Source: a virus
Direction: 5' to 3' (one strand)
Length of the DNA: 43,025 nucleotides
IMG/VR virus record: IMGVR_UViG_3300002138_000051
Span: 1 to 43,025 of that record
Below, one piece after another: positions 4,693 through 33,183 of the stretch (positions within the stretch are counted from its first letter, which is position 1; each line of letters opens with the position of its first letter). The notes below the pieces were generated by a model, which was not told the DNA's origin, ran no database searches, and saw only the letters and a program-made list of their open reading frames with translations. A program made the position numbers and the translations under genes.

Positions 4693-4722
4693 TTGACAAA
4701 ACTTTTGATTATAGTATCTTTG
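4693..4722 (+). promoter_or_regulatory. Bacteroidetes-type promoter for the intron HNH gene
   Basis: TTG at 4693-4695, 19 bases, then TATCTTTG at 4715-4722. This matches the -33/-7 (TTG...TAnnTTTG) promoter of Bacteroidetes. The ATG of the HNH gene follows 7 bases after the -7 box. The promoter lies inside the intron, so the endonuclease can be expressed independently of the host gene. Confidence 0.85.
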
Positions 4723-4729
4723 TACTATA

Positions 4730-5470
4730 ATGAAAAGTAATATAGAAGTAAAAAATAATGAAAAATACGGAGAATGGACAGTAATTGACCAAACTCCTAT
4801 GAAAAGTAATTTTGGAAATGTTTACGTTTTATGTAAATGTACTTGTGGAACTATATCTAAAATAATGAGATGTAGATTAAAAGACGGTAAAACAAAAGGT
4901 TGTAAGAAATGCAGCTCGTCTAGAAACAAACAAGCATTAGGTAAAGGTAAACATAAAGGATGTGGAGAAGTGTCTAAAGAAATTTTTAAAAGAATAAAAA
5001 GACATTCTCAAGACAGACGTAGAAAAGATATTTCAAAAATGCCTTTTACAATAACTATAGAATACATATGGGAATTGTATGTAAAACAAAAAGGCATTTG
5101 TGCAATAAGCGGACTACCTTTAATATTACATCTAAAAGGTAAAAAAGTTACTTCTCATGATTATTTTTCTTATGTTACAGCTTCATTAGACAGAATTGAT
5201 TCAAATATGGGATATGTACCAGGAAATGTGCAATGGGTACATAAATGGGTTAATATTATGAAAAATTCAATGTCGGATGAACAACTTAAATATATATGTC
5301 AAACAATTTATTTTTATAACAAAGACAACTTTGAGCCGAGCCTTGTAAACGTAGACTTCTTACAGAAGGTTTCAAGGAAGGTGCAACGACTAACGGATGA
5401 TAGCTCTACGCTAAATAATTCTGACACGAGAATCCGACACCCTCAGTCCGAGGGTGATGACATAGTCTGA
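4730..5470 (+). CDS. Intron-encoded HNH homing endonuclease
   Basis: This 246-residue protein has an N-terminal zinc-ribbon-like segment with C-K-C-T-C-G (about 36-41) and C-K-K-C-S (about 62-66). A central HNH nuclease region follows: G-I-C-A-I-S-G-L-P, then A-S-L-D-R-I-D-S with G-Y-V-P-G-N-V-Q-W-V-H, typical of phage HNH endonucleases. Such enzymes cut an intronless allele and drive copying of the intron. The last 40 or so residues are odd: they are encoded by the ribozyme core itself (R to S elements), and the stop TGA 5468-5470 is part of the S region. The protein therefore ends in sequence dictated by RNA folding. Its own promoter abuts the start codon. Confidence 0.92.
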   Translation: MKSNIEVKNNEKYGEWTVIDQTPMKSNFGNVYVLCKCTCGTISKIMRCRLKDGKTKGCKKCSSSRNKQALGKGKHKGCGEVSKEIFKRIKRHSQDRRRKDISKMPFTITIEYIWELYVKQKGICAISGLPLILHLKGKKVTSHDYFSYVTASLDRIDSNMGYVPGNVQWVHKWVNIMKNSMSDEQLKYICQTIYFYNKDNFEPSLVNVDFLQKVSRKVQRLTDDSSTLNNSDTRIRHPQSEGDDIV

Positions 5471-5489
5471 ACTATACGGTGACGTATAG
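5380..5489 (+). ncRNA. Group I intron catalytic core (R/S elements, P7-P9)
   Basis: GTGCAACGACTA (5381-5392) is an R-like element. Its GACTA (5388-5392) pairs with TAGTC (5463-5467) in the S-like element ACATAGTCTGAAC to form P7. Between them lies a strong hairpin, CACCCTC/GAGGGTG, closing AGTCC (P8-like). After S, CTATACG-GTGA-CGTATAG (5472-5489) is a seven-pair hairpin with a GNRA tetraloop (P9-like). The order and spacing are those of group IA phage introns such as the T4 td intron. Confidence 0.85.
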
Positions 5490-5524
5490 AAGTAGTAATT
5501 AAAAAAGCTACGATAACAAAATTG

Positions 5525-5831
5525 ACACCACGCTGTTTTAAACCCTACTAAAGCTATTAATTGGTTATTCATATGTGTAGCTATCGTAAGATTTGCTGAA
5601 CAGCACAGTAGCCGAATAATAACTGGCAAAAACAAAATATCATTAGAAGAAGTATTAATGTATTACAAGAATACATTCGGTACTTCGTATTCTAGTTCAG
5701 TTTCAAATTATCTCATAGAATATTACAAAAGTCGTAAAGCTTTTTTTAGCAAGGCTGATGTAGTAGGAAGTGGCGATGAAGCCGAAACCGATTACACTTT
5801 TCTATACGAAGGGATGTCAGATATATTTTAA
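5525..5831 (+). CDS. Type 2 amidoligase, exon 2 (C-terminal part)
   Basis: An open frame from 5526 to TAA 5829-5831 encodes 101 residues starting H-H-A-V-L-N-P-T-K-A-I-N-W-L. This fits the stretch that follows T-V-E-F-R in amidoligases (E-F-R-x-H, then L-x-P and a helix). TGA at 5523-5525 blocks the frame just upstream, and there is no start codon near the beginning, so it cannot be an independent full gene. The rest is a mostly helical tail ending S-D-I-F. Joined to exon 1 at Arg435-Ala436 it completes the enzyme. Confidence 0.8.
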
Positions 5832-5834
5832 CTC

Positions 5835-5865
5835 TTGCAATTTTTCTTAGAAAGTTGTATCTTTG
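5835..5865 (+). promoter_or_regulatory. Bacteroidetes-type promoter abutting the GIY-YIG gene
   Basis: TTG 5835-5837, 20 bases, TATCTTTG 5858-5865, then CAAT and ATG at 5870. The predicted transcript would start at or within a few bases of the start codon. The TTG lies just after the amidoligase stop codon. Confidence 0.85.
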
Positions 5866-5869
5866 CAAT

Positions 5870-6286
5870 ATGTGGACTTACAATAATCAAGAATTCGAAG
5901 ATTACATGGCTCAAGGACATGAAGGATTTATATACCGTATAACAGACGATAAAGGTCGCATGTATATTGGTAAGAAAGCTTTCTCTCACAGAAACAAGGT
6001 AAAACTTTCTAAGAAAGCAAGAGTTGGTACAAGAAAACGAGTTGAAATTCGTCAAAAAGATAGTGGGTGGAAAGCCTATTGGGGATCCTCTAAAGAACTA
6101 CTAGAATATATTAAAGTTTCAGGTACTGATAACTTCACCAGAGAAATCTTAAAATTATGCAAGGATAAACAATCTTTAGCATATTGGGAAGTTCATTACA
6201 TGATAACTGAAAACGTACTGTTTTCGGATCACTACTGGAATGGAAATGTATCTGGTAGATTCTTTAAAGGAAAAATTCATAAATAA
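5870..6286 (+). CDS. GIY-YIG endonuclease, Seg-like
   Basis: This 138-residue protein contains the GIY-YIG signature as G-F-I-Y-R-I-T (about 18-24) and M-Y-I-G-K-K (about 31-36). It then has W-K-A-Y-W-G-S-S-K-E-L and a conserved Glu in Y-W-E-V-H-Y. This arrangement is common in free-standing phage GIY-YIG proteins of the Seg type. They nick or cut DNA and often spread by homing. A start at TTG 5855 is possible but would lie inside the -7 box, so ATG 5870 is preferred. The gene directly follows the intron-split amidoligase, in a stretch rich in homing endonucleases. Confidence 0.85.
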   Translation: MWTYNNQEFEDYMAQGHEGFIYRITDDKGRMYIGKKAFSHRNKVKLSKKARVGTRKRVEIRQKDSGWKAYWGSSKELLEYIKVSGTDNFTREILKLCKDKQSLAYWEVHYMITENVLFSDHYWNGNVSGRFFKGKIHK

Positions 6287-6288
6287 AT

Positions 6289-6319
6289 TTGTTTTTTAAT
6301 ATTTCTTTACGTATCTTTG
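6289..6319 (+). promoter_or_regulatory. Bacteroidetes-type promoter abutting the next gene
   Basis: TTG 6289-6291, 20 bases, TATCTTTG 6312-6319, TAAC, ATG 6324. The -7 box is four bases from the start codon, implying a leaderless or nearly leaderless mRNA. Confidence 0.87.
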
Positions 6320-6323
6320 TAAC

Positions 6324-6638
6324 ATGAGTAAAATGTTCACACATACAAAAGAAGTAGGGGAAGAAGGTGACAAAAAGACCTTAACCCAGGGAGTAAATTT
6401 AGACTATCTAGTTAACTATGTATATGACGAATCGACGTTATTCCTATTTATGGATGAACAGATCGAAGCTGTCAGAGTTGTAGAAGTACCTGTAAAAATA
6501 AAACCTTCCAAAGAAAATACAGCTGGTTGGAAAATAGACCAGCAAGCACGAACTGTAAAGGAATCATATACAATTGAAGTAACTGACCCAGAAGCTATCA
6601 ATCGATTTCTAGAATATCAAAAACAAACATCAATTTAA
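6324..6638 (+). CDS. Hypothetical protein, 104 residues
   Basis: A small acidic protein with no family I recognise. It has no membrane segment or signal peptide. The C-terminal half reads like beta strands ending with a short helix (E-A-I-N-R-F-L-E-Y). It forms its own transcription unit, with a promoter abutting the start codon and a strong intrinsic terminator right after the stop. An isolated unit of this kind suggests an early, highly expressed phage gene. Confidence 0.8.
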   Translation: MSKMFTHTKEVGEEGDKKTLTQGVNLDYLVNYVYDESTLFLFMDEQIEAVRVVEVPVKIKPSKENTAGWKIDQQARTVKESYTIEVTDPEAINRFLEYQKQTSI

Positions 6639-6642
6639 GTAT

Positions 6643-6668
6643 AAGCCCCTTTAGTTAGGGGCTTTTTT
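6643..6668 (+). terminator. Intrinsic terminator
   Basis: AAGCCCCT, loop TTAGTT, AGGGGCTT, followed by a run of T. The perfect eight-pair stem with a U tract lies 4 bases after the preceding stop codon. Confidence 0.93.
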
Positions 6669-6674
6669 ATCATT

Positions 6675-6836
6675 ATGAAATTAATCACACTATTATTATT
6701 TTTTGTAGTTCTTAGTAAAGAACCTTCACAAAAATACTGCAAATATCAAGCATTGACTGCTGATAGCACTACTTATACTATATATAGCTTAGACTTCAGT
6801 AAAGAGAAAGGAGATACGTTTTGGATAAATCCGTAA
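6675..6836 (+). CDS. Small secreted or membrane protein, 53 residues (hypothetical)
   Basis: The frame ATG 6675 to TAA 6834-6836 begins M-K-L-I-T-L-L-L-F-F-V-V-L-S. That is a short basic start followed by a hydrophobic stretch, as in a signal peptide or membrane anchor. The remaining 39 residues are polar with one Cys. No promoter is visible, and the terminator lies immediately upstream, so expression would depend on read-through. Its end overlaps a relic of a HAD gene. It could be a real small envelope protein or a chance frame. Confidence 0.45.
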   Translation: MKLITLLLFFVVLSKEPSQKYCKYQALTADSTTYTIYSLDFSKEKGDTFWINP

Positions 6837-6859
6837 TATCTTTTGATTTTGATGGATAA
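6821..6859 (+). pseudogene. Relic of the 5' end of a HAD hydrolase gene
   Basis: TTG 6821 starts a frame reading L-D-K-S-V-I-S-F-D-F-D-G and then TAA 6857-6859. AAAGGAG lies about 7 bases upstream, a good ribosome site. The peptide matches the start of the intact HAD gene at 7567 (K-I-I-V-S-L-D-F-D-G-T-L-A) and stops exactly at the catalytic D-x-D-G motif. A GIY-YIG endonuclease gene lies between the two copies. The simplest reading is that the insertion displaced the old 5' end and brought in a new one. Confidence 0.65.
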
Positions 6860-6883
6860 AAGTTAAATTTATACTATTTACTA

Positions 6884-6913
6884 TTGTAATAATCTATAGA
6901 TATTATATATTTG
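6884..6913 (+). promoter_or_regulatory. Bacteroidetes-type promoter abutting the second GIY-YIG gene
   Basis: TTG 6884-6886, 19 bases, TATATTTG 6906-6913, TAGT, ATG 6918. It has the same geometry as the other promoters here, with one variant base pair in the -7 spacer (TA instead of TC). Confidence 0.82.
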
Positions 6914-6917
6914 TAGT

Positions 6918-7577
6918 ATGACATGTATATACAGTATAATAAACAAATTAAACGGCAATCAATACGTAGGATCTGCTGTAAATTTTTACAAAAGAAAACA
7001 AATCCACTTAAAACAACTGCGCTTAAACATCCATCACTCTAGATATTTGCAAAGAGCTTGGAATAAACACAAAGAAGACATGTTTGATTTTATAGTGTTG
7101 GAAAAAGTAAAAAGTAAAGACTTTTTAATTCAACGTGAACAATGGTGGATTGATAATTCAAATTCTCAATACAATGTTTGTAAAATAGCAGGAAGTAGTT
7201 TGGGTGTAAAAAGAACAGCTGAAACAATAGAAAAGATAAGGCAAGCTAACTTAGGATTAAAACATCCGGAATGGAGAAATGAAATAAAAAGTAAAGCTCA
7301 GGGCGGTGTTAATCACCATGGGTATGGTAAAAAACTATCAGAAGAAACTCTTAAGAAAAAATCTGAATCTATGAAGCAATATTATAAGACTCATCCTCAT
7401 ATGCGTGCTAAAACAGTGTGTAAATATGATTTAGAAGGCACTCTTCTTCAATGCTTTGATTCAGTAAAGTTAGCAGCATATGATGCAGAAATACACTACC
7501 TTACTCTAATAAGATTAATTAATGGTAAAACTAAAGTGAGAAAATTAAAACAATTTCAATACAAATATGAAAAATAA
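6918..7577 (+). CDS. GIY-YIG homing endonuclease with NUMOD domains
   Basis: This 219-residue protein starts with C-I-Y-S-I-I-N (3-9) and Q-Y-V-G-S-A (15-20), the GIY-YIG core; a Glu follows in Q-R-E-Q-W-W. Two NUMOD3-like DNA-binding repeats follow (A-E-T-I-E-K-I-R-Q-A-N-L-G and S-E-E-T-L-K-K-K-S-E-S-M). A NUMOD1-like helix-turn-helix ends the protein (V-C-K-Y-D-L-E-G-T-L). This is the usual build of mobile GIY-YIG endonucleases. The gene has its own promoter. Its stop overlaps the start of the HAD gene by 11 bases, and a HAD 5' relic lies upstream, so it seems to have inserted at the HAD D-F-D-G codons. Confidence 0.9.
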   Translation: MTCIYSIINKLNGNQYVGSAVNFYKRKQIHLKQLRLNIHHSRYLQRAWNKHKEDMFDFIVLEKVKSKDFLIQREQWWIDNSNSQYNVCKIAGSSLGVKRTAETIEKIRQANLGLKHPEWRNEIKSKAQGGVNHHGYGKKLSEETLKKKSESMKQYYKTHPHMRAKTVCKYDLEGTLLQCFDSVKLAAYDAEIHYLTLIRLINGKTKVRKLKQFQYKYEK

Positions 7578-7980
7578 AATAATTGTGAGCCTAGATTTTG
7601 ACGGCACACTCGCTACATCAATTGAATTACAAGATTTTGCAAAACTACTTGCAGAAAAAGGAGTAAATGTATGTATTACAACTAGGCGAAGTAACGACCC
7701 TGTAAATAATGCAGAATTCCACGAACAGTTTCCGCATCAGGAAGTAGAAAGACTAGCATCCGCACTAAAAATAAACACTATTAACTATACTAATGGTCAC
7801 TATAAGAATATATTCTTTGAAGGCAAGTTTGGATATATTCACATTGATGATGATGATACAGAGATTAGATATATAGTATATGATAAGCTGAATGCTAAAA
7901 ACGACGTTATGTGTTTTAACGTTATGGAAATTAAAAAATTTAAAGAATATATAATTAATGAATTTGGAATCAATATCTAA
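7567..7980 (+). CDS. HAD-family hydrolase (putative phosphatase)
   Basis: This 137-residue protein has HAD motif I, S-L-D-F-D-G-T-L-A (residues 8-16), with the nucleophile Asp10 and acid Asp12. Motif II may be C-I-T-T-R-R. A D-D-D-D run follows I-H-I, as in motif IV. It lacks a large cap domain, so it is a compact phage phosphatase of the 5'-nucleotidase or polynucleotide phosphatase kind; the substrate is unknown. The start ATG overlaps the end of the GIY-YIG gene. The first 12 codons appear to be a replacement for a 5' end left at 6821-6859. Confidence 0.82.
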   Translation: MKNKIIVSLDFDGTLATSIELQDFAKLLAEKGVNVCITTRRSNDPVNNAEFHEQFPHQEVERLASALKINTINYTNGHYKNIFFEGKFGYIHIDDDDTEIRYIVYDKLNAKNDVMCFNVMEIKKFKEYIINEFGINI

Positions 7981-9061
7981 CAAAGTCACCTATCAAAAAC
8001 AACTTGATATACTTGAAAAAGAAAAAAACTACAGAAAGAATGAAAATTTAAACTTTTCAGCAATTAAGGACTTTGATGAAGCTGGCCCCTTTGAGTACTA
8101 TAAAAAGCATATAGCTAAAGATAGAGTTATTAAAACTGAATCTGAGGCATTTGATATAGGCAATCTAGTAGATTGCTTATTAACAGTACCTGATACATTT
8201 GATAGTAGATTCTACACATTTAGTGGTGATGTGCCTGTTATAGGTCAGAATAGAGAACTTGTAGAAGAAATGTTCAGAATTATAAAAGGTTCATATGACG
8301 AAGGTACAGATTCCTTTACTATGGGATTTGAAGATGTGTTTACTACAGCTTTCGAAAATATTCAATTGGATAAGTTTACAAAAGAACAAGTTAAGTTTAA
8401 AGGTAAAACATGGCAAACAGTATTAGATATATTTGCAGATGGTCCAATGGAAGACTACTATAATACGTTAATGAGTAATATTAATCGAAGAGGTGTAGGA
8501 TTGTCTCAAGTTGAAATGGCAGAAGCAATTGTTAAAAGCATTCAATCTGTTCCCGTTATTCAGAATATTTATAATGGTATAGACCCCAACGTTGAAGTAT
8601 CTAATCAATTTCCTATTTATTTTGAATATAAAGGATTCAAAATGAAGGGTTTACTGGATACACTTTTTATCAATCATAAACATAAAACTGTACAAGATAT
8701 TGACTTAAAGACTAGTTGGTCTACGATTGATTTTGAATATAATAGAATTAAACAGAGATATTATCTACAAGAAGCTGTATATTACACAGGATTAAAGATT
8801 CTCTATCCGGATTATAAGGTTCTTCCTAGAAGATACATTATTGCCGATAGTAAAAATCATATAAGGCCTTATATAGCTAAAACAACTGAAGAACATGTAA
8901 GTCAAGGGATTAATGGGTTTACTACTCCTTCAGGTATGGTAAGAAAGGGATTAGATCAACTCCTAGACGAGCTTAAGTGGCATTTTGATAATTCAACTTG
9001 GAATACCACTAAAGAAATTTATGAAAATAATGATGAAATAACTTTAAAATTATTTGCATAA
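7958..9061 (+). CDS. PD-(D/E)XK exonuclease, RecE/RecB-like
   Basis: In this 367-residue protein, K-G-L-L-D (230-234) and D-I-D-L-K-T-S (247-253) give the catalytic Asp234, Asp249 and Lys251 of the PD-(D/E)XK fold. A Q-E-A-V-Y-Y-T-G-L helix follows (about 272-280), as in the QxxxY motif of RecB-type nucleases. N-terminal N-F-S-A-I-K-D-F and G-N-L-V-D are typical of phage PDDEXK exonucleases of the RecE/DUF3799 kind. It overlaps the HAD gene and lies just before recA, so the two likely work together: resection of double-strand ends, then strand exchange. Confidence 0.85.
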   Translation: MNLESISNKVTYQKQLDILEKEKNYRKNENLNFSAIKDFDEAGPFEYYKKHIAKDRVIKTESEAFDIGNLVDCLLTVPDTFDSRFYTFSGDVPVIGQNRELVEEMFRIIKGSYDEGTDSFTMGFEDVFTTAFENIQLDKFTKEQVKFKGKTWQTVLDIFADGPMEDYYNTLMSNINRRGVGLSQVEMAEAIVKSIQSVPVIQNIYNGIDPNVEVSNQFPIYFEYKGFKMKGLLDTLFINHKHKTVQDIDLKTSWSTIDFEYNRIKQRYYLQEAVYYTGLKILYPDYKVLPRRYIIADSKNHIRPYIAKTTEEHVSQGINGFTTPSGMVRKGLDQLLDELKWHFDNSTWNTTKEIYENNDEITLKLFA

Positions 9062-9084
9062 TAAAGATACTTTGCGTATCTTTG
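9054..9084 (+). promoter_or_regulatory. Bacteroidetes-type promoter abutting recA
   Basis: TTG 9054-9056 (inside the last codons of the exonuclease gene), 20 bases, TATCTTTG 9077-9084, TAGC, ATG 9089. The -7 box is four bases from the start codon. Confidence 0.87.
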
Positions 9085-9088
9085 TAGC

Positions 9089-10045
9089 ATGTCTAAAGAA
9101 AAAAAAGAAGAAAGATCGCATGACCAAATTCTCGCAGAACTTGAAAAAAAGTGGGGTTTACAAAAAGCAGTAGTGTTACCTAAAGAAATTGTAAGTACAG
9201 GAAGCTATACATTAGATATAGCAACAGGTTTAGGAGGTTATCCTAAAGGAAAGCTTATTGAAATATATGGGCCTGAATCTAGTGGTAAAAGTACTATGAT
9301 GTTACACGCTTTAGCTGAATTTCAGAAAGCTTGCCCTGATAAGAAAGCTGCTTTAATTGATTATGAATATTCATTCGATGCAGCATATGCCGCATCGCTA
9401 GGAGTCGATGTCGATTCTTTATTAATCTATCAACCCGATTCTCAAGAATCTGGATATGATATGATCTTAGGACTAGTAACATCAGGAATATGTTCACTAG
9501 TTGTTATAGATAGTTATACCGCTGCTATACCTTTAAAAATTATTCAAGGTGAAATGGGCGATGCTACTATGGGGCTGCAAGCTAGAAATAACAGTAAGTT
9601 TTTAGGCAAACTAAAAGGACTTATTGAAAAATCTAATACAACCGTTATAGGAGTATCTCAAACTAGAGTAAATATAGGAGGTATGGGAGAAGTAAATACT
9701 CCAACAGGAGGAAGTGCTTGGAAATTCTATCCCGATATGAGATTTAAAGTTTGGAAGAGTAACGATAAGGACAAAGGTTTGAATAGAACAACTATCGATG
9801 TTGTTAAAAACAAATGTTCTGCACCATTCGGAAAAGCTGAATTTAATATAGTATGGGGTGAAGGAATTGATAACTATATCGAAATTTTAGAAATAGCGTG
9901 TGAGAGAGGAGTTGCCAAACAAGCAGGCTCTTGGTACTCATTTGGTGATATCAAGCTAGGACAAGGCTCTAATGGAGTTAGAACTACCTTTGAAGATAAT
10001 CCCGAGCTATTTGAAGAAGTTAAAAAATTAGCAATGGCAAAATAA
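9089..10045 (+). CDS. recA: RecA-family recombinase
   Basis: This 318-residue protein has Walker A G-P-E-S-S-G-K-S-T (61-69) and Walker B S-L-V-V-I-D-S-Y (136-143). The L2-like loop region includes G-G-M-G-E-V-N-T-P-T-G-G, and F-Y-P-D-M-R-F follows. These are RecA-core features; it polymerises on single-stranded DNA and promotes pairing and strand exchange. It is shorter than bacterial RecA (about 350) because the C-terminal domain is reduced, as in other phage RecA proteins. It follows the PD-(D/E)XK exonuclease and has its own promoter. Confidence 0.95.
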   Translation: MSKEKKEERSHDQILAELEKKWGLQKAVVLPKEIVSTGSYTLDIATGLGGYPKGKLIEIYGPESSGKSTMMLHALAEFQKACPDKKAALIDYEYSFDAAYAASLGVDVDSLLIYQPDSQESGYDMILGLVTSGICSLVVIDSYTAAIPLKIIQGEMGDATMGLQARNNSKFLGKLKGLIEKSNTTVIGVSQTRVNIGGMGEVNTPTGGSAWKFYPDMRFKVWKSNDKDKGLNRTTIDVVKNKCSAPFGKAEFNIVWGEGIDNYIEILEIACERGVAKQAGSWYSFGDIKLGQGSNGVRTTFEDNPELFEEVKKLAMAK

Positions 10046-10060
10046 AAATTAAAAAAAACA

Positions 10061-10402
10061 ATGAGTGAGAAAATGAATAATGACGAATTCGAAGCTACTG
10101 TTGAATTATTTCTTGGTAAAATAAGAGAAAATTTAGTAGTTAAAGCTAGAGAGTACGCAAGAGGGGGAGATAGGCTAAGTAATTTTAATACAGGAGCTCG
10201 TATAAGAAGTAAGTCTAGAGAAGAAGTTCTTTGGGGAATTGCGACTAAACATTTAGTATCAGTTATTGAAATGGTAGAAGACTCTGAATCAGGAGTTATA
10301 CCAAGTCAATATATGTTAGATGAAAAGGTTGGCGATTTAGCAACATACCTTACTTTACTATATGCCTCATTTCAACACAGAATAAATAATGAAAGTAAAT
10401 AA
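10061..10402 (+). CDS. Conserved phage-type protein, all-helical, 113 residues (hypothetical)
   Basis: A helical protein with K-A-R-E-Y-A-R-G-G-D-R-L-S-N-F (about 28-42), W-G-I-A-T-K-H, and D-E-K-V-G-D-L-A-T-Y-L-T-L-L near the end. This spacing (Arg-Leu-x-Asn-Phe, then Lys-His, then Gly-Asp-Leu-x-x-Tyr) resembles small phage proteins of the nucleotide-modification or MazG-like all-alpha groups, but I cannot fix the family. The start follows an A-rich stretch typical of Bacteroidetes ribosome sites. It is probably co-transcribed with recA, 15 bases away. Confidence 0.8.
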   Translation: MSEKMNNDEFEATVELFLGKIRENLVVKAREYARGGDRLSNFNTGARIRSKSREEVLWGIATKHLVSVIEMVEDSESGVIPSQYMLDEKVGDLATYLTLLYASFQHRINNESK

Positions 10403-11012
10403 TATAGTGCCGGAAGATATACTATATGAAGATGTAGAGTTACCAAGAAGTGCATTTGGTATGGGTCAATATAACAATTCGCATTATTTTTTATTACCAT
10501 TATTTAGATTAAGAGGGATGTTAGCATTCTCAAATGAATACATTGGTTCTTATATTGATGATAGCGGAAGAATATGTAATATTGACGACCGTATTCATAT
10601 CGTTTTCAAATTTGAGAATTTTACAACTTCAAAGTATCAAAGAGTAAATTCATATTTTGAAGAAAGAAAAGACTACAAGTTTTCATACTACGCAGGTAGC
10701 AATAATGGAAATTTAGTATGTTATGTTTTAAAAGCCGATAAAGAAGATTCCGATTGCTATAAATCTATAGTAAATGGCGAATATTCTAAAGTACCTAACT
10801 GGTACATTGATCGTGCATCTAATTTTCCTTTTTCTATAGATGTTAGAAAAAGACTACAAGGAATATGTCGAAAAGAAGAATGGCATAGGAATGAAATAGA
10901 AGCTCTATTAGACGTCGATTTAGGAAACGTTGAACAATGGAGTGCATTTGAACCACACATGGAAATATTTAGATACAATGTTAAAAAGAAAGAAGAAACA
11001 ATACAGCTCTGA
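10389..11012 (+). CDS. Hypothetical protein, 207 residues
   Basis: I do not recognise this protein. It is mixed alpha/beta and rich in Tyr, Asp and Glu, with no signal or membrane segment. It overlaps the gene before by 14 bases and the HNH gene after by about 35, so it is part of the recA operon. Its C-terminus is highly basic (K-K-K-E-E-T). Confidence 0.75.
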   Translation: MKVNNIVPEDILYEDVELPRSAFGMGQYNNSHYFLLPLFRLRGMLAFSNEYIGSYIDDSGRICNIDDRIHIVFKFENFTTSKYQRVNSYFEERKDYKFSYYAGSNNGNLVCYVLKADKEDSDCYKSIVNGEYSKVPNWYIDRASNFPFSIDVRKRLQGICRKEEWHRNEIEALLDVDLGNVEQWSAFEPHMEIFRYNVKKKEETIQL

Positions 11013-11286
11013 GGATTTAGCTAATAAGCAAAAGCAAAATGAGCTATTTGAGCTTCACTGGAATACTACCAGTCATTACTGTAGATCTTGTAACAGATAT
11101 TTAGGCAAGGAAAACAAAACGATCTTTCACGATCACTTGTTAGAAAAATCAAAATATCCTGAACTTAGATTTGAAATAGGTAATTTATATTTAGTATGCA
11201 TTGATTGTCATGATATGAAAAGTAGAGGGTTCCCAACAAGAAAACATTCTGAAGCTATAAGAATAGCAGAAGAAAGATTTCTATAA
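10978..11286 (+). CDS. HNH-type zinc-binding nuclease domain protein
   Basis: The sequence has C-R-S-C (about 37-40), F-H-D-H-L, then G-N-L-Y-L-V-C-I-D-C-H near the C-terminus. This is a Cys4 zinc site framing His-Asn-His-like catalytic residues. A K-Y-P-E-L-R motif between them is common in phage HNH proteins. ATG 10978 is preferred to ATG 10930, because the earlier one would add 16 residues that overlap the previous gene without family character. It could serve in recombination or DNA processing with RecA. A terminator follows directly. Confidence 0.8.
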   Translation: MLKRKKKQYSSEDLANKQKQNELFELHWNTTSHYCRSCNRYLGKENKTIFHDHLLEKSKYPELRFEIGNLYLVCIDCHDMKSRGFPTRKHSEAIRIAEERFL

Positions 11287-11290
11287 CAAT

Positions 11291-11318
11291 AGCCTGCTTA
11301 TAAAAAGGCAGGCTTTTT
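11291..11318 (+). terminator. Intrinsic terminator
   Basis: AGCCTGC, a ten-base loop, GCAGGCT, then TTTT. It ends the recA-HNH operon 5 bases after the HNH stop codon. Confidence 0.9.
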
Positions 11319-11330
11319 AATTTAAAAAAT

Positions 11331-11597
11331 ATGACAGCAGCAACAAAATCTAGCGATCCGGAATTTATCGAGTATCGTTATAAAATAGAGCCCCGTCCTT
11401 CTGGTTCAGAAGTATATACGTTAAAGCCTAACGACATACTAGAGATTATGAAAGTTCCTGTAAATAACATATGGACAGTTATGAGTTGCCCTGAATTTGG
11501 ATATGTTGTCAGACCAGGCTATCGGGTAACTAATAGGATTGGATATATTATCACAGAAGAACATTGGAAGAACATGAACGAAATTTATCAATATTAA
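11331..11597 (+). CDS. Hypothetical protein, 88 residues
   Basis: A small beta-rich protein I do not recognise. It starts after an A-rich ribosome-site-like stretch. No clear TTG/TAnnTTTG promoter is seen between the terminator and the start. It leads a string of four tightly packed small genes that ends at the patatin-like gene. Confidence 0.7.
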   Translation: MTAATKSSDPEFIEYRYKIEPRPSGSEVYTLKPNDILEIMKVPVNNIWTVMSCPEFGYVVRPGYRVTNRIGYIITEEHWKNMNEIYQY

Positions 11598-11598
11598 T

Positions 11599-11790
11599 AT
11601 GAAATTTGGAGTATCGGAAGAAGACGTAAAAACAGTAGCTAGAACCCTTAAAGTGGATCTAACTCAAGAGCAGTTAACATCTATTATAAACAAATTCGAA
11701 GACAACGGCTTCGATACTTGGTATATAGTAGTAGAAGATTTAATCTATGAAGAATTAACAAATGAAACAAAATCAGTTATTCGAAGCTAA
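11599..11790 (+). CDS. Hypothetical protein, 63 residues
   Basis: A small acidic protein, mainly helical. The segment L-T-Q-E-Q-L-T-S-I-I-N-K-F is helix-like, followed by an acidic end. It starts one base after the previous stop and overlaps the next gene by 29 bases. I do not recognise the family. Confidence 0.65.
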   Translation: MKFGVSEEDVKTVARTLKVDLTQEQLTSIINKFEDNGFDTWYIVVEDLIYEELTNETKSVIRS

Positions 11791-12016
11791 CGAAATTGAA
11801 TATACAATATATAACTATGAAACAAATGAAAAGTTATTAGTTGTAAATTCAACAGAGAAAGTAAGACGGTTCTTTGGCAAAAGAATGCACCCTGAACAGA
11901 TATCTAATAAGGTATTAAAAAATGGGGAAAGATCCAGATCATTTAGACAAGATGGTACCAAATGTTACATAACTTCAAAAGTAAAAAAAAATGAAACAAA
12001 TAATAAATGCAAATAA
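11762..12016 (+). CDS. Hypothetical protein, 84 residues
   Basis: A basic small protein with E-K-V-R-R-F-F-G-K-R and a Lys-rich tail. It could bind nucleic acid, but no family is recognisable. It overlaps both neighbours by 26-29 bases, consistent with translational coupling. Confidence 0.65.
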   Translation: MKQNQLFEANEIEYTIYNYETNEKLLVVNSTEKVRRFFGKRMHPEQISNKVLKNGERSRSFRQDGTKCYITSKVKKNETNNKCK

Positions 12017-12254
12017 CATTATAAAAGAATTTGGAAGCTATGCCGCTTCTAAACCTTACAAACCTGTACCAATATCACATATGGTAAATGATAGATTTAG
12101 AGTATTAGCTTTACCTAAACATAAGGGAGTGATTACATTTAAGCCTTCATGTAAGTATATAGCTGTACTTGACGGCTCTCCTGAGAGTTATATTATTATG
12201 AAGATATCGCTAAAGACTCTTCGTACAATTTACAATAAAGGAAGTAATGGATAA
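11991..12254 (+). CDS. Hypothetical protein, 87 residues
   Basis: A small basic protein, probably mixed alpha/beta; I do not recognise the family. It overlaps the gene before by 26 bases and the patatin-like gene after by 8, so it is part of the same transcript. Confidence 0.65.
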   Translation: MKQIINANNIIKEFGSYAASKPYKPVPISHMVNDRFRVLALPKHKGVITFKPSCKYIAVLDGSPESYIIMKISLKTLRTIYNKGSNG

Positions 12255-13161
12255 TAAAAACATAAGCGCGTTGAGTATATCCGGCGGTGCAATGGGCATC
12301 GTCGGACAATTCGGCGTAACTGAACAAATCTTTAACCGAATTAAACCAGAATATTTTGCTGGTATTAGTGCGGGAAGTATCTTAGCATTAGCTATGCCTA
12401 CAGTTGATTGGAATTCTACATGTGAGTGTAGAACTTTTAATCTAAAAAGGGCTTTGCTAGGAATTAGATCTTGTGATATTTGGAGTGCGAATCCTCTAAA
12501 TAAAAAAGGAGGATTCTCAATAATAGCTGTAGCAAGTATTTTATCAGGTAAACCCGGCTTAGGAGATATGAGTAATTTAGGTGAGTATCTATCTAAACAT
12601 GTTCCTAAGAATAAATTTATTATGAGGCTGAAAGATAACCCAAGATATAAAGGTATATTTGCAGGTTCTGTTGATTTTAATACTGGTAGTAGACAATATG
12701 TCAATCTTAAAGATTGTTCATATAATGATGCTCTTGATTGGGTTATTGCATCATCTTCTATTCCAGTATTTGCAGAACCGGTTGAAAAGGATTCAAGCTT
12801 CTATTTTGATGGAGGTGTTAGAAATCATAATCCCGGACATTGGTTAACAGAAAACTATGGTAAAGATTTTAATAGATTAACTAGTATATATTCCAGACCT
12901 GAAAATTATGATATATCTAATAAGGATTGGAAGCCTGATAATGTATTAAAAGTACTTGAAAGAAGTATTGAAATCATGCAAATGGAGATTTCAAAACGGG
13001 ATCAAAAAGAAGAGATTCGATTATGCTCAGATCTAGGTATCGATTTAAGTCAGATATTCTTACCTAAGATGCTACAAGGATATTATGATACTGACACTAC
13101 TAGATTAAGAGCATTATACGAAGCTGGTAAAAAAATAGGAAAGGAGTTTAATGAAAGATAA
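12247..13161 (+). CDS. Patatin-like phospholipase
   Basis: This 304-residue protein has the three patatin landmarks. These are a Gly-rich oxyanion segment S-I-S-G-G-A-M-G (10-17), the nucleophile elbow G-I-S-A-G (Ser41), and D-G-G (188-190) giving the catalytic Asp. The usual G-G-G-x-R/K-G lacks its basic residue here. Patatin-like enzymes hydrolyse acyl esters of lipids. No signal peptide is present, so it acts in the cytoplasm or at the inner face of the membrane. In a phage it could alter host membranes, interfere with defence or assist lysis; nothing in the sequence decides this. It overlaps the genes on both sides. Confidence 0.9.
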   Translation: MDNKNISALSISGGAMGIVGQFGVTEQIFNRIKPEYFAGISAGSILALAMPTVDWNSTCECRTFNLKRALLGIRSCDIWSANPLNKKGGFSIIAVASILSGKPGLGDMSNLGEYLSKHVPKNKFIMRLKDNPRYKGIFAGSVDFNTGSRQYVNLKDCSYNDALDWVIASSSIPVFAEPVEKDSSFYFDGGVRNHNPGHWLTENYGKDFNRLTSIYSRPENYDISNKDWKPDNVLKVLERSIEIMQMEISKRDQKEEIRLCSDLGIDLSQIFLPKMLQGYYDTDTTRLRALYEAGKKIGKEFNER

Positions 13162-13570
13162 AATACAAAAAAGAATAGAATTTAACAACGCATTCGGGGT
13201 ATCTGAGCAGAGCCCCGAATTAATTTCTAAATTGCTCAACGAGGAAGTCGAAGAGTACTTAAAAGCCGCTAGTGAGAATGACGAAGTTGAAATAGCTGAT
13301 GCTGCTGCTGACATATTATACATTTTGATAGGCTTGATAATAAAACATGGACTGGTTGATAAAATAGATGATATTTACAATGAGGTGCATGCTAGCAACA
13401 TGTCAAAATTAGATAATGATGGCAAGCCTATAATCAATGGAGTTAATGGATTTGATGACAGCAGACCCGCAGGTAAAGTTTTAAAAAGTAAAAATTTTAT
13501 AGAACCTAATATTGCAGGAATACTGAATGGTACATATAAACCTAGAAATAGATATATAAAACTCATATGA
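13151..13570 (+). CDS. MazG-like nucleotide pyrophosphohydrolase
   Basis: In this 139-residue helical protein, E-E-V-E-E (31-35) and E-I-A-D-A-A-A-D (47-54) form the E-x-x-E and E-x-x-D metal-binding motifs of MazG-like enzymes. Downstream, V-H-A-S-N-M-S-K-L (about 80-88) resembles the conserved end of phage MazG-like and phosphoribosyl-ATP pyrophosphohydrolase proteins. They split nucleoside triphosphates to monophosphate and pyrophosphate. In phages they adjust nucleotide or alarmone pools. Single-domain length is normal for the family. Confidence 0.87.
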   Translation: MKDKIQKRIEFNNAFGVSEQSPELISKLLNEEVEEYLKAASENDEVEIADAAADILYILIGLIIKHGLVDKIDDIYNEVHASNMSKLDNDGKPIINGVNGFDDSRPAGKVLKSKNFIEPNIAGILNGTYKPRNRYIKLI

Positions 13571-13968
13571 CAGTTTATAAAACGAGAGTATTCGATAAAA
13601 AAGGCAAAGTTATTAAAACTCATATTTCAGAAAGGTTTTCTTCAAAAGGGGAAGATCTTATTGAAGAATGGTTAAAACGAAAGAAGTTTAACTACAGAAA
13701 AGAAAAAAGATTTTCATGGTTATTAGGTGTCAACAATGGAGAAATGAGACTTGATTTTTATATTCCGTCGTTGAGAATAGCTATTGAATTTGATGGGCCT
13801 CATCATGAAACATCTGACTATCAAAAAGCAAACGATGCTGTTAAAAACAAACTACTTAAAAAGAAAAACATACGTCTTATACGTATTCACTATTCAAGAA
13901 TGCATTTGATATCAGCGATTTTAAATCACTCCATAATCAAAAAAACAAAAATAAAAAAATATGGCTAA
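13567..13968 (+). CDS. PD-(D/E)XK-fold nuclease, Vsr/DUF559-like
   Basis: In this 133-residue protein, M-R-L-D-F-Y-I-P (60-67) followed by I-A-I-E-F-D-G-P-H-H (71-80) gives Asp63, Glu74 and Asp76. This is the E-x-D-G-x-x-H form seen in Vsr-like and DUF559 endonucleases. A Glu on the first helix (29 or 34) completes the site. The C-terminal I-R-L-I-R-I strand is also typical. It is probably an endonuclease for DNA repair, packaging or host DNA breakdown. It overlaps both neighbours, so it is in the patatin-MazG transcript. Confidence 0.8.
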   Translation: MTVYKTRVFDKKGKVIKTHISERFSSKGEDLIEEWLKRKKFNYRKEKRFSWLLGVNNGEMRLDFYIPSLRIAIEFDGPHHETSDYQKANDAVKNKLLKKKNIRLIRIHYSRMHLISAILNHSIIKKTKIKKYG

Positions 13969-14446
13969 TTGGTGTACAAACACGGTAACCTTTTCCGGGC
14001 CTGACGAAAATAAAGTACGTCAGGTATTTAAAAGGCTTGAGAAGAAGTGTAATAATACTAATTTAGGACAGACTTTAAAGTGGTTTAAAGATGATAGATA
14101 TCTATTTGATATAAATACAGATGATACTATTTCTTTTGAAACAAAGTGGGGTCCAGCCGAACAAACTATATTGGAAATTTTTAATAGATACGACGTCAAT
14201 GGAGAGTATTATTATGAAGAACCTGGTATGAGTATTTACGGAGCCATCTTTAAAATAGATAATGAAGTATATAGTGTAAATTTAGACGATGAGGATTTAG
14301 ACCCTTTAGATTATAATGACGAATTAGATTGTTATACTGTAAGCGGCATACCTATTGAATCTGATTCAGACTATTTATTCGGAGCGATAGACAATAAAAT
14401 GCAACGGCTTATTAGTAATCGTAAAACAGAAAAAGGGCTCACTTAG
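13961..14446 (+). CDS. Api92-like ferredoxin-fold protein
   Basis: The start M-A-N-W-C-T-N-T-V-T-F-S-G is the hallmark of the Api92/YubB-like family with a ferredoxin-like domain. F-E-T-K-W-G-P-A follows, and then Y-Y-Y-E-E-P-G-M-S-I-Y-G. The family is widespread in phages and plasmids; its biochemical role is unknown. It is one of only three genes here that end in TAG. The stop lies in the loop-to-stem junction of the following terminator. Confidence 0.85.
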   Translation: MANWCTNTVTFSGPDENKVRQVFKRLEKKCNNTNLGQTLKWFKDDRYLFDINTDDTISFETKWGPAEQTILEIFNRYDVNGEYYYEEPGMSIYGAIFKIDNEVYSVNLDDEDLDPLDYNDELDCYTVSGIPIESDSDYLFGAIDNKMQRLISNRKTEKGLT

Positions 14447-14457
14447 AGCCCTGTTTT
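14430..14457. terminator. Bidirectional terminator between convergent genes
   Basis: GGGCTC, loop ACTTA, GAGCCC, followed by TGTTTT on the plus strand and by TTTTTC on the minus strand. It lies between the plus-strand Api92-like gene and the minus-strand gene that ends at 14485, where the two transcription directions meet. Confidence 0.8.
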
Positions 14458-14484
14458 GCCGGTTACAAACTTTTTTTGTCCAGT

Positions 14485-14766
14485 TTAGCTTTTCGAAACT
14501 TCTGGTTCAGAAGGAAGTGTTTCTGGCTCAGAAGGAGCTGACTCGTCTGAGAGTGCGCCTGAATCAAACTCTTTAGCTACTCCGGCTTCTACCATCCTAG
14601 CTATGATATCTGTTCGTACTTGTAAAGCTGCTTGAAATATCAAAGCCCCCTCAAACAATGCAATACTTCTCTGAAAAATATCAAATTCTGCACCTGAAAT
14701 TTCGATCTTGTCTGTAGGTTCCCAACGATAATTCTTACCTTGTTCTAATTTATTATTTTCACTCAT
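14485..14766 (-). CDS. Hypothetical protein, 93 residues, with an acidic Pro/Ser/Glu tail
   Basis: The start is set at the ATG four bases after the -7 box (M-S-E-N-N-K-L). Longer starts would lie inside the promoter. A helical middle (A-L-F-E-G-A-L-I-F-Q-A-A-L) is followed by a disordered tail with E-P-E-T-L-P-S-E-P-E. I do not recognise the family. It is the last gene of the minus-strand half. Confidence 0.75.
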   Translation of the reverse strand: MSENNKLEQGKNYRWEPTDKIEISGAEFDIFQRSIALFEGALIFQAALQVRTDIIARMVEAGVAKEFDSGALSDESAPSEPETLPSEPEVSKS

Positions 14767-14770
14767 ACTA

Positions 14771-14801
14771 CAAAGATACAATATTTATTTTAAAAAAGCA
14801 A
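14771..14801 (-). promoter_or_regulatory. Bacteroidetes-type promoter abutting the 93-residue gene
   Basis: Read on the minus strand: TTG (14801-14799), 20 bases, TATCTTTG (14778-14771), TAGT, ATG at 14766. The last bases, TATCTTTGTAGTATG, are identical to those at the 17024 gene. Confidence 0.87.
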
Positions 14802-14855
14802 GAACTTTTTTAATTTTATAAAGAATACTGAATTTTTTAATCTATTTCATAAGTA

Positions 14856-14996
14856 TTATATATTCCAACCTAACATTTTTAGGCGGTGTTTAAACAATTC
14901 TATATCTATTGTATAGATATGCCCATTAAGAGTTACTTTAACATCTTCTTTGACATTTCTAACAATATCTTCCATTTGTTTTTTACTATAAGTCAT
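14856..14996 (-). CDS. Small hypothetical protein, 46 residues
   Basis: ATG 14996 to TAA 14858-14856 encodes a small protein with V-K-V-T-L-N-G-H-I-Y-T-I-D (about 19-31), which looks like a beta-hairpin, between two short helices. Its start overlaps the stop of the gene upstream by 11 bases, the usual packing here, and this supports it as real. No family is recognised. Confidence 0.6.
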   Translation of the reverse strand: MTYSKKQMEDIVRNVKEDVKVTLNGHIYTIDIELFKHRLKMLGWNI

Positions 14997-15219
14997 TGTT
15001 GTACGATTTAGGTTTAAAGAATAACTGTTCTAAATCTCCGTTATTTTCTATATTTCCTCCAGTACCAGTTAAAAAAACTGTACCTTTTAATTTAAGATCT
15101 AACTTAGGCATACAAGCATCCCACATTTCTTTAAGTTGCTCAGGAGTAAATCTCCTTTTAAGTTCATCTAATTCATCGTATGGTTCAAACCATAACAGAG
15201 GTCTTTTTCCGTTTATCAT
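14986..15219 (-). CDS. Hypothetical protein, 77 residues
   Basis: A small protein with R-R-F-T-P-E-Q-L-K-E-M-W-D-A-C (about 22-36), a helical segment, and a Gly-rich turn later. It ends with TAG at 14988-14986, followed directly by TAA, so amber read-through would add one residue only. It overlaps the gene on each side by a few bases. Confidence 0.65.
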   Translation of the reverse strand: MINGKRPLLWFEPYDELDELKRRFTPEQLKEMWDACMPKLDLKLKGTVFLTGTGGNIENNGDLEQLFFKPKSYNNDL

Positions 15220-15458
15220 TGTATTGTTACACTAACGCCATCAGTTAATTTACATTCTGCAAGAGTTTCAAACTGTTCAACTTTATCTTCATCAATAGCT
15301 AATTTAATATCACAGTGATGGTAAGTATTTTGCTTCCTTGTATAGTCTTTAATACCTAATCCCCATGTAACTAATATTCTAGCATCTGTCATTATAGTAG
15401 CATACATAAATGCTGACATAGCTTTAGTAGACATTCTTATTTTAGCTATTTTAATCAT
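15216..15458 (-). CDS. Hypothetical protein, 80 residues
   Basis: A small basic protein with R-M-S-T-K-A-M-S-A-F-M-Y near the start; I do not recognise it. Its ATG is only two bases downstream of the mature 3' end of the tRNA gene, so tRNA 3' processing would create the 5' end of this mRNA. Its stop overlaps the start of the next gene. Confidence 0.65.
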   Translation of the reverse strand: MIKIAKIRMSTKAMSAFMYATIMTDARILVTWGLGIKDYTRKQNTYHHCDIKLAIDEDKVEQFETLAECKLTDGVSVTIQ

Positions 15459-15460
15459 TG

Positions 15461-15530
15461 AGGACTGTGAGGGAGTCGAACCCTATCAACTTGGTTTAGA
15501 ATCAAGTGCTTACCCTGTAAGTCACGGTCC
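15461..15530 (-). tRNA. tRNA with probable anticodon CUA (amber suppressor), degenerate stems
   Basis: On the minus strand a cloverleaf can be drawn. The acceptor is GGACCGT with ACAGTCC, with one C-A mismatch. The D arm is CTTA/TAAG with a short five-base loop. The anticodon arm is CTTGA-TTCTAAA-CCAAG, four pairs plus an A-C mismatch. The T arm is AGGG-TTCGACT-CCCT. In the 7-base loop TTCTAAA, T33 is followed by CTA (plus-strand 15499-15497), which reads UAG. An arginine TCT reading would need a 9-base loop or would break the stem. CCA is not encoded. The mismatches and short D loop mean it could be a decaying gene. Confidence 0.72.
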
Positions 15531-15600
15531 AGGTAGGAATCTCAGTTTTATTTTAATACAGACCGCTCTCCTAACATAAACTGTATTGTACAACTATAAT
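15531..15600 (-). other. Possible tRNA remnant (D-arm-like sequence)
   Basis: On the minus strand, AGTTTATGTTAGGAGAGCGG resembles a tRNA D arm: GTTT/GAGC stem with the conserved TTAGGA-type loop, then G. No anticodon stem, T arm or matching acceptor can be made. It sits directly upstream of the CUA tRNA on the same strand, so it may be what is left of a second tRNA. The rest of the 180-base gap to 15710 holds no open frame I can support, only a short GGCAT/ATGCC hairpin at 15667-15679. Confidence 0.25.
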
Positions 15601-15709
15601 ACTTTATATATATAAAAGCAAGAAAAATTACAAATAAATTTTAAAGCATTTACAACTATCATCATAGGCATGTGATGCCACATATATATAGTATTCATTA
15701 TAAGCAGCA

Positions 15710-16819
15710 TTAGAAGATGTGACTTAGTCTTGCTACCTGTCCTTGTACCGGGTGATGTATAAATGCCTCTACAGCTTTAGGAGAATGTTGATATCCGTTT
15801 CTGTGATGCCAGCTATCTGTACCCGATGGACTTCTTAATGATTCTACACATACTGAGCCGTAGTCTCTAGATTTTTTATGATGGATATGATGTGTATAAA
15901 AGTATCTATGTCTGCATACTCCCCAGTTTAAAGGAGATTCTTGAGCCATCAATAACGGTAAGTCTGTCTCTTTAGCCCCATCACCATGAGTAGTACCTAT
16001 TAGGTTTTCTCCATAGGTAAAATACTTTCTATGAGCAATGCTAGTATTAAATTCAATATTCTTATTGTCTTTAAACCATGTTTTAATACTATCAGCTAGA
16101 AAGAATCCATTTATATAATCATGGTTAGATGGATCATACTGAACATATACATCAGCTACAGTTAATAACATTTCAATAACTTCTACATATAATTGTTTAG
16201 CTATTAAGAAGTTATCATACCACATACCGTCAGTATCTTGTGGAGTGTTAGAAGTAGTTACTCGTTTAGGACTATCTATATGTAATATATCATTTCCTAT
16301 AATGAATAGTATTTTATTAATATTAAAGCCTGACGCTTTATCTAAGAGCCCTTTAACACCTTCCTTTACTCTCTGTACAGCTACTTGATTATCATAGCCC
16401 TCACCCACTTCAAATGCGCTTGCAAGCTTACCTATATGAATATCAGCTGGGTCTATTACTAACAAATGAGGATCTTTGATCTTTTCTCGTTTTAAAGTCG
16501 GATACTGTGGAGAATACTCTCTCATTTCATCTATTAGGGCATCTTTTAAATCTGTTAAATTTACTTTACTATTTAACACATTCATACTGAATGATTTAGA
16601 TTTATGCCAGTATGATTTAACTGAGTCGAAATCTACACCAGTTTCTTCGCAATGCTGTAATAGTGCACTATGCTTTTGTTGTTTAAACAATTTCTTAGCT
16701 TCAAATACTTCATCTAAGGTTACATTGTTTCTCTGAGCTATTCTTTTGTTTGATAGCCTGTAAACAGCTTCTCTTGTAGAGAATAGCTTAATTAGTTTTT
16801 CAATATTATTATGATTCAT
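15710..16819 (-). CDS. Calcineurin-like metallophosphoesterase with an N-terminal HTH-like region
   Basis: This 369-residue protein has the metal-binding motifs of the family in order: D-I-H (126-128), G-N-D (175-177), N-H-D (232-234), His278 in T-T-H-G-D, and H-I-H (311-313). Such enzymes hydrolyse phosphodiesters or phosphomonoesters; several phage members act on DNA. Residues about 21-48 (R-L-S-N-K-R-I-A-Q-R-N-N-V) look like a helix-turn-helix, suggesting DNA binding. It overlaps the small gene upstream by 11 bases and shares its promoter. Confidence 0.88.
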   Translation of the reverse strand: MNHNNIEKLIKLFSTREAVYRLSNKRIAQRNNVTLDEVFEAKKLFKQQKHSALLQHCEETGVDFDSVKSYWHKSKSFSMNVLNSKVNLTDLKDALIDEMREYSPQYPTLKREKIKDPHLLVIDPADIHIGKLASAFEVGEGYDNQVAVQRVKEGVKGLLDKASGFNINKILFIIGNDILHIDSPKRVTTSNTPQDTDGMWYDNFLIAKQLYVEVIEMLLTVADVYVQYDPSNHDYINGFFLADSIKTWFKDNKNIEFNTSIAHRKYFTYGENLIGTTHGDGAKETDLPLLMAQESPLNWGVCRHRYFYTHHIHHKKSRDYGSVCVESLRSPSGTDSWHHRNGYQHSPKAVEAFIHHPVQGQVARLSHIF

Positions 16820-17024
16820 CTGTTACTCTTTCAGGGATTACTAATGATAAACAGTCTTCTGTAACTGTCGCAAAACAATCTTTTTCCACTCTAACTTTAT
16901 AGAGTAGAAAATCATCACCATCTAATATATGTATATTAGTAGCGCTTTCTATAGAAACTATCTTTCCACTAAGTTCAAAGAACATAATGTTAACATAGTC
17001 GCCTACTTTGTAATTATTCTCCAT
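16809..17024 (-). CDS. Small SH3-like beta protein, 71 residues (hypothetical)
   Basis: M-E-N-N-Y-K-V-G-D-Y-V-N-I begins a short beta-rich protein whose opening (K-V-G-D-x-V) is common in SH3-like barrels. The start at 17024 is fixed by the promoter, whose -7 box ends five bases upstream. The stop overlaps the start of the phosphoesterase. In-frame codons continue upstream without a stop to the TAG of the 44-residue gene at 17079. Confidence 0.75.
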   Translation of the reverse strand: MENNYKVGDYVNIMFFELSGKIVSIESATNIHILDGDDFLLYKVRVEKDCFATVTEDCLSLVIPERVTDES

Positions 17025-17028
17025 ACTA

Positions 17029-17058
17029 CAAAGATACGACAATTTTTGAAAAAAACAA
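17029..17058 (-). promoter_or_regulatory. Bacteroidetes-type promoter abutting the 71-residue gene
   Basis: Minus strand: TTG (17058-17056), 19 bases, TATCTTTG (17036-17029), TAGT, ATG at 17024. It drives the phosphoesterase and tRNA group. Confidence 0.87.
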
Positions 17059-32779: not shown

Positions 32780-33088
32780 TTATTTATATAACCATTGAAT
32801 GTTAGCAGAACCTGAAAGCATAGTAAATACTATTTCATTAGCATTAACAGTACTAAACTGCATTGCTTCAGAACTTGTATATTCTACAGCTGTTCCGCCA
32901 TCTATTGTAATTGTTAAAGATCCTGATACTACAATCCATGCTATTGCATGAACCGTACCCTTAGCAAAGGTATAGCTATCAGTTCCGCCAAAGGTGATTA
33001 CCGTTTGGGCTAGTTTGTTATAACAGCATCCATTGCCATTACGTGTATTTTTTGCTACTTCTCTAAGTAGTTCGCTAGTTTCGCTCAT
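32780..33088 (-). CDS. Small beta-rich virion protein, 102 residues
   Basis: A helical start (S-E-L-L-R-E-V-A-K-N-T) is followed by C-C and then nine or so beta strands (I-T-F-G-G-T-D-S-Y-T-F). It is first in the promoter-led transcript that includes the fibre genes. It is probably a decoration or fibre-attachment protein. Confidence 0.72.
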   Translation of the reverse strand: MSETSELLREVAKNTRNGNGCCYNKLAQTVITFGGTDSYTFAKGTVHAIAWIVVSGSLTITIDGGTAVEYTSSEAMQFSTVNANEIVFTMLSGSANIQWLYK

Positions 33089-33183
33089 AATTAATCAAAT
33101 TTTAAAAATTTCAGGATAAGATATCCCCGAAGGATAACCCTTCCAGCTTTATACAAAGATACAATATCCTGAAAATTTTACAA
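33089..33183 (-). promoter_or_regulatory. Promoter with a structured leader before the fibre-gene operon
   Basis: Minus strand: TTG (33183-33181), 19 bases, TATCTTTG (33161-33154). The start codon is at 33088, about 65 bases further on, unlike the other promoters. The leader can fold (TATCC-TTCGG-GGATA, and a second short GGATA/TATCC stem). This could be a 5' stabilising hairpin. Confidence 0.8.

Follow-up and report, generated by a model that had tools for sequence, protein, structure and literature searches.

We analysed a 43,025-nucleotide stretch of viral DNA (IMG/VR record IMGVR_UViG_3300002138_000051, positions 1 to 43,025; hereafter the window) for promoters composed of TTG, a gap of 19 or 20 nucleotides (nt) and the box TAnnTTTG. 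Our scan finds seven of them directly before start codons, the same seven that a preliminary description of this DNA had listed. That description placed 4-7 bases between box and ATG, which needs correcting, as the spacing is tighter than such a range: the gap, called d below, is exactly 4 nt in six of the seven abutting promoters and 7 nt at 4715. As had also been described, one sequence, the 15-mer TATCTTTGTAGTATG, is identical at both minus-strand sites (14766 and 17024), and the promoter at 33154 has a long leader, with 65 nt from box to ATG. The features are listed here in map order.

4693..4732, plus strand: predicted promoter, TTG-N19-TATCTTTG + 7 nt + ATG; box 4715, ATG 4730; endonuclease VII/HNH-like gene 4730-5470
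5835..5872, plus strand: predicted leaderless promoter, TTG-N20-TATCTTTG-CAAT-ATG; box 5858, ATG 5870; SegE-like GIY-YIG endonuclease 5870-6286
6289..6326, plus strand: predicted leaderless promoter, TTG-N20-TATCTTTG-TAAC-ATG; box 6312, ATG 6324; 104-residue gene without assigned function, 6324-6638
6643..6664, plus strand: terminator-like hairpin and T run, ending the 6324 unit
6853..7593, plus strand: insertion, absent from contig L002; leaderless promoter, 6918 homing endonuclease and new 5' end of the HAD-like gene 7567-7980
6884..6920, plus strand: predicted leaderless promoter, TTG-N19-TATATTTG-TAGT-ATG; box 6906, ATG 6918; GIY-YIG/NUMOD3 homing endonuclease 6918-7577
9054..9091, plus strand: predicted leaderless promoter, TTG-N20-TATCTTTG-TAGC-ATG; box 9077, ATG 9089; RecA gene 9089-10045
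14764..14801, minus strand: predicted leaderless promoter, TTG-N20-TATCTTTG-TAGT-ATG; box 14771-14778, ATG 14766; 93-residue gene without assigned function, 14766-14485
17022..17058, minus strand: predicted leaderless promoter, TTG-N19-TATCTTTG-TAGT-ATG; box 17029-17036, ATG 17024; 71-residue gene 17024-16809, then DNA repair exonuclease 16819-15710
33086..33183, minus strand: by contrast, promoter with a leader, TTG-N19-TATCTTTG, 65 nt to ATG 33088; box 33154-33161; first gene of the late operon

Promoter arrangement and predicted transcription starts

Counts of the bare octamer are uninformative: TAnnTTTG occurs 58 times in the window against 60.5 expected, and is not enriched. The complete arrangement TTG-N19/20-TAnnTTTG-N4-ATG, on the other hand, is present six times compared with a mean of 0.046 in 500 dinucleotide shuffles, the largest shuffle count being 3. 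The preliminary description had named an equal frequency by chance as the finding that would count against it, and none of the 500 shuffles reaches six. Other boxes with a TTG at roughly the right distance sit within genes (e.g. 4807, 8194, 24124, 29563 and 40643) and are probably chance matches. Several operons of the window, such as those from 159 and from 15458, have no perfect box. A megablast of the window against phages gave no match, and a viral-contig scan for TTG-N19-TAnnTTTGTANNATG, whose listed matches include chance ones, is not used as evidence.

TTG and TAnnTTTG are the -33 and -7 elements of the Bacteroidota primary sigma factor, sigma-ABfr; the box is located at -12 to -5 in Flavobacterium johnsoniae, where the mapped start site lies 4 or 5 nt past its last G (PMC6847099), and likewise at -12 to -5 in F. 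psychrophilum (PMC9723704). The window promoters belong to this class, having a -7 TAnnTTTG with a -33 TTG 19-20 nt upstream. Since d = 4 coincides with the published spacing of 4-5 nt between box and +1, the A of the ATG would be the first transcribed base and the mRNA would be leaderless. This distance places the predicted +1 on the start codon in six of the seven genes, and all seven start with ATG. At the 4715 promoter the fifth base past the box is the A of 'ATA', for which we predict a 3-nt leader, AUA.

All six of the 4-nt spacers (TAGT three times, TAGC, TAAC and CAAT) read YANY and are followed by A, as in the additional promoter of a sister genome described below, while YANY precedes 131 of 1098 open reading frame (ORF) starts (12%) in the sampled chromosomes. 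Initiators usually carry a pyrimidine at -1 and a purine at +1. A pyrimidine and an A directly past the box are also favoured in promoters with leaders, suggesting that this preference belongs to the promoter.

Most start codons of the abutting promoters are well supported. For the genes at 4730, 6324, 6918 and 9089 a stop codon is met before any upstream in-frame start, and the Pfam alignments start at residue 2 in both the 5870 protein (SegE_GIY-YIG) and the 6918 protein (GIY-YIG). The genes at 5870, 14766 and 17024 have an upstream in-frame TTG (5855, 14781 and 17042), because box and spacer together measure 12 nt and are free of stops (Y-L-C-S/N-M). Such an in-frame stretch is a trap, as gene callers can extend genes upstream through these promoters.

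A sister genome and the inserted homing endonuclease

Contig L002 (genome G001) is 99.7-99.8% identical to the window over 12.8 kb and shows zero substitutions in every window promoter that it covers, the 4715 promoter included. In the extra 14 kb that it has upstream, a further leaderless promoter (TTG-N20-TATCTTTG-TAAC-ATG, 8847) precedes the gene of an AAA_24 ATPase.

The segment 6853-7593 is absent from L002, which thus carries the uninserted allele expected of a homing endonuclease in a near-identical genome; the 6918 protein matches Pfam PF01541 (GIY-YIG) and PF07460 (NUMOD) above cut-off. As L002 lacks both the 6918 promoter and its endonuclease, the promoter-plus-ATG unit arrived together with the mobile gene. 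With the terminator-like hairpin (6643-6664) upstream of it, the endonuclease probably depends on a promoter of its own. Insertion also gave the HAD-like gene a new start and N-terminus (MKNKIIVSLDFDGT, compared with DKSVISFDFDGT in L002), and with these rebuilt the interrupted gene would survive. In L002, the stretch from the terminator-like hairpin to the HAD-like gene (8330-8520) has no sigma-type box; in the window (6665-7600), transcription from the insertion's promoter would extend to the HAD-like and exonuclease VIII-like genes as well.

Relatives of the 6918 endonuclease in other phages (L206, L207 and L211) occupy the same DxD codons of a HAD-like gene, with a rebuilt gene 5' end after each, and their loci lack the Bacteroidota box. 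This GIY-YIG family inserts into the DxDGT codons of HAD-like genes in unrelated phages alike (6853-7593 compared with L002 8506-8513; L206, L207, L211). We considered and rejected the idea that every homing endonuclease of these phages carries a leaderless promoter: most NUMOD4-HNH relatives and the GIY-YIG relatives L206-L220 are without one, and a box of the leaderless type is found at L199 (NUMOD4-HNH, d = 4) and L160 (GIY-YIG, d = 3). The NUMOD4-HNH genes of L313, L317, L318 and L335 start right after a terminator-like hairpin and T run, often as TTTTATTTT-ATG, with no recognisable promoter.

Box-to-start distances in related phages and Bacteroidia chromosomes

Homologues of the window's exonuclease occur in Muminvirus phages of Flavobacterium, an Elizabethkingia phage, a Synechococcus phage, contigs of Bacteroidetes metagenome-assembled genomes and many IMG/VR contigs, and the promoter type is consistent with a Bacteroidota host. 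Across 50 dereplicated exonuclease contigs, d is 3-5 at 27 of the 111 gene starts that have a box (24%), compared with 1.5 per control motif. Two distant relatives have TTG-boxed promoters at d = 4, 4, 6 and 10, plus one at 32 (G002), and at d = 4, 4, 9 and 9 (G003). The spacing can differ between orthologues: the DUF5856 gene of L194 and L198 has d = 4, whereas in L182 and L183 its likely orthologue shows d = 15. Beside a homologue of the window gene 14766, contig L123 (3327-3560) has a leaderless 77-residue gene, whose protein scores below the Pfam cut-off for the Acb2/Tad1 hairpin domain (24.6 bits against 27) and is possibly an anti-defence protein.

For the chromosomal background we sampled 58 stretches from 36 Bacteroidia genomes (two masked), with distances anchored on ORFs. 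The distance profile peaks sharply at d = 4 (19) and d = 5 (12) over about 4 per position elsewhere; control motifs show no d = 4-5 peak in these chromosomes and no d = 3-5 peak in the related phages. The same spacing peak in the chromosomes suggests that the signature is derived from the host and is not phage-specific. In one low-GC genome (G039; L231, L251, L270, L289-L308), 42 of 125 recognisable promoters are at d = 3-5 (34%), compared with 28 of 158 (about 18%) in the other Bacteroidia genomes. In the window and sister genome together, seven of nine promoters have d = 4, more than the chromosomal shares, with a binomial probability of 0.0002 at a background of 18% and 0.009 at 34%, values that assume independent promoters and take pooled genomes, not the true host, as background.

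Whole-genome scans for the full pattern with one -33 spacing gave 274 matches, against 79 for the reversed pattern, in 99 Bacteroidia genomes (357.7 Mb; 0.77 versus 0.22 per Mb) and 23 against 2 in G039 alone. In Gammaproteobacteria (about 149 Mb) the complete pattern gave 31 against 15, indicating that the reversed control is lenient and the Bacteroidia excess smaller than it appears; the ORF-anchored distance peak is the better evidence.

Interpretation and relation to known systems

We observed the arrangement, its significance, the insertion with its promoter and the spacing peak in relatives and Bacteroidia chromosomes; the exact +1, the sigma factor used, the ribosome mode and the time of expression are inferred. 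We consider it probable (roughly 0.8) that host primary-sigma promoters are placed in this phage for transcription to start on the A of the ATG, at six sites and at one in the sister genome, and 3 nt before the AUG at 4715, yielding leaderless mRNAs. Host RNA polymerase with sigma-ABfr would start on the A of the start codon and produce an mRNA with a 5'-terminal AUG, on which the ribosome would start directly, with neither leader nor Shine-Dalgarno contact; the later, often overlapping genes of each unit may be translated through coupling. Promoter and start codon would then form a compact unit of about 37 bp, which at 6918 was brought in with the homing endonuclease. The exact 4-nt gap, the terminator upstream of 6918 and the extra leaderless promoter of the sister genome favour this reading. 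The leaderless mRNAs of the preliminary description are well supported, through the known box-to-+1 distance (PMC6847099), the YANY|A initiator and the start codons, and are further backed by the near-identical relative and by distances that peak at 4-5 nt both in related phages and in Bacteroidia chromosomes, with 4715 as the case of a 3-nt leader.

Several points weigh against it. The exact +1 is taken from published mapping of this promoter type, and the A and pyrimidine before the ATG could in part reflect translation context. Leader statistics from mapped Bacteroidota species are unfavourable: leaders below 10 nt make up only 3.7% in Bacteroides thetaiotaomicron (PMC7366714), leaderless mRNAs 5.5% in F. 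psychrophilum (PMC9723704), and leaders exceed 10 nt in 87% of cases in F. johnsoniae (PMC6847099). Our computed d = 3-5 shares exceed the 3.7-5.5% measured in model species (PMC7366714, PMC9723704), that of G039 by a wide margin, and lean upward, because exact boxes within 120 nt only, a crude gene caller and the nearest box were used. Moreover, the TTG-boxed promoters of phages snusmum6-1, phi10:1 and B40-8 are at d = 20-119 and mainly leadered, so the abutting habit is not common to all Bacteroidota phages. In B40-8 (L223), promoters near 16764, 18974, 20960, 24601 and 32540 have a repeated CAGTGTCAAAAGGAAACAAATTACTAACA-type leader before the ATG, possibly a common leader element.

The promoters might be real while the translated mRNA is mostly leadered read-through, with the TAGTATG-like sequence serving as an A-containing initiation region. 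The plus-strand units are indeed co-directional and an A at -3 favours translation in F. johnsoniae (PMC6847099), but we regard this as unlikely, given the terminator-like hairpin ahead of the 6918 unit, the position of the minus-strand 17024 unit beyond the last late-operon gene, the insertion that carried its own promoter, and an exact 4-nt gap that would be pointless for a mere backup promoter. Quite unlikely, too, is a switch of phage translation over time from leaderless early to leadered late genes, as the preliminary description had suggested. A lectin-domain protein, a holin and an endolysin are encoded in the unit from 33088, whose promoter gives a 61-nt leader, and all seven abutting promoters lie outside this operon. 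That contrast, however, rests on the one late promoter of the window and finds no support in the relatives, where genes of 3070, 2343 and 715 residues (without assigned function) follow d = 4 boxes while a primase/helicase-like gene and small non-structural genes have 15-85 nt from box to ATG; in addition, the late leader is not notably folded (z 0.10) and host genomes mix both modes.

It is very improbable that the real starts are elsewhere, at an upstream TTG or a later ATG, making the box coding or the mRNA leadered. The stop-free frame through box and spacer and its three TTG codons would permit this, yet four of the genes have no start ahead of the stop, two proteins have their GIY-YIG domain from residue 2, and the next in-frame starts are at residues 13-44, save for 6324 (residue 4). 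That an AT-rich octamer meets start codons by chance can practically be dismissed: TAnnTTTG alone occurs at chance frequency, but the shuffles never reach the observed six and the distance peak is seen again in independent genomes.

The sigma-ABfr promoters of B. fragilis, B. thetaiotaomicron, F. johnsoniae and F. psychrophilum share the -33 TTG, the -7 TAnnTTTG, the 19-20 nt gap and the pyrimidine-A past the box, but are mostly leadered in the mapped species (median 24-32 nt), unlike the seven of nine promoters here with exactly 4 nt to the ATG. Leaderless promoters of Actinobacteria and Deinococcus-Thermus (PMC3160421, PMC12340547) likewise have a -10-type box right before the start codon at fixed spacing, but belong to another sigma type and phylum, and serve 20-40% of genes there while being reported rare in Bacteroidota. 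The predicted leaderless SigA-like promoters of Cluster O mycobacteriophages (PMC4351075) also use a host-type sigma factor, and their +1 is predicted to coincide with the first base of the start codon; those phages, however, infect an actinobacterial host rich in leaderless genes, and each of their genomes carries three of these promoters, including one in the structural operon. Free-standing phage GIY-YIG/NUMOD3 homing endonucleases are similarly mobile genes in conserved codons of another gene with their own promoter, whereas here the promoter is fused to the ATG with no leader and the interrupted HAD-like gene regains a start and N-terminus from the insertion.

Leaderless promoters are already known; what is new is, first, their heavy use in a Bacteroidota phage and, second, the mobile-gene cassette. 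Our literature search, which did not cover preprints and many subscription papers, found no report of leaderless promoters in Bacteroidota phages. We suggest only tentatively that leaderless initiation from an abutting -7 box is a major mode for some lineages of uncultivated Bacteroidota and for the phages of these, well over the 4-6% of model species, and that the fused promoter-ATG is a portable cassette of phage mobile genes for any insertion context. Bacteroidota mRNAs lack Shine-Dalgarno sequences. A phage with nearly every recognisable non-late promoter on a start codon offers natural constructs for testing leaderless initiation in this phylum. Surveys that rely on Pribnow-like boxes or on few model species may underestimate such initiation, and the promoter-ATG unit, at about 37 bp, would make a convenient part for expression in Bacteroidota.

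Two other genes of the window deserve mention. The region 33191-41770, about one fifth of the window, encodes a 2859-residue protein with no Pfam or PHROG match, and the non-structural operon of the phage includes a patatin-like phospholipase gene (12247-13161; Pfam PF01734, E 4.8e-17).

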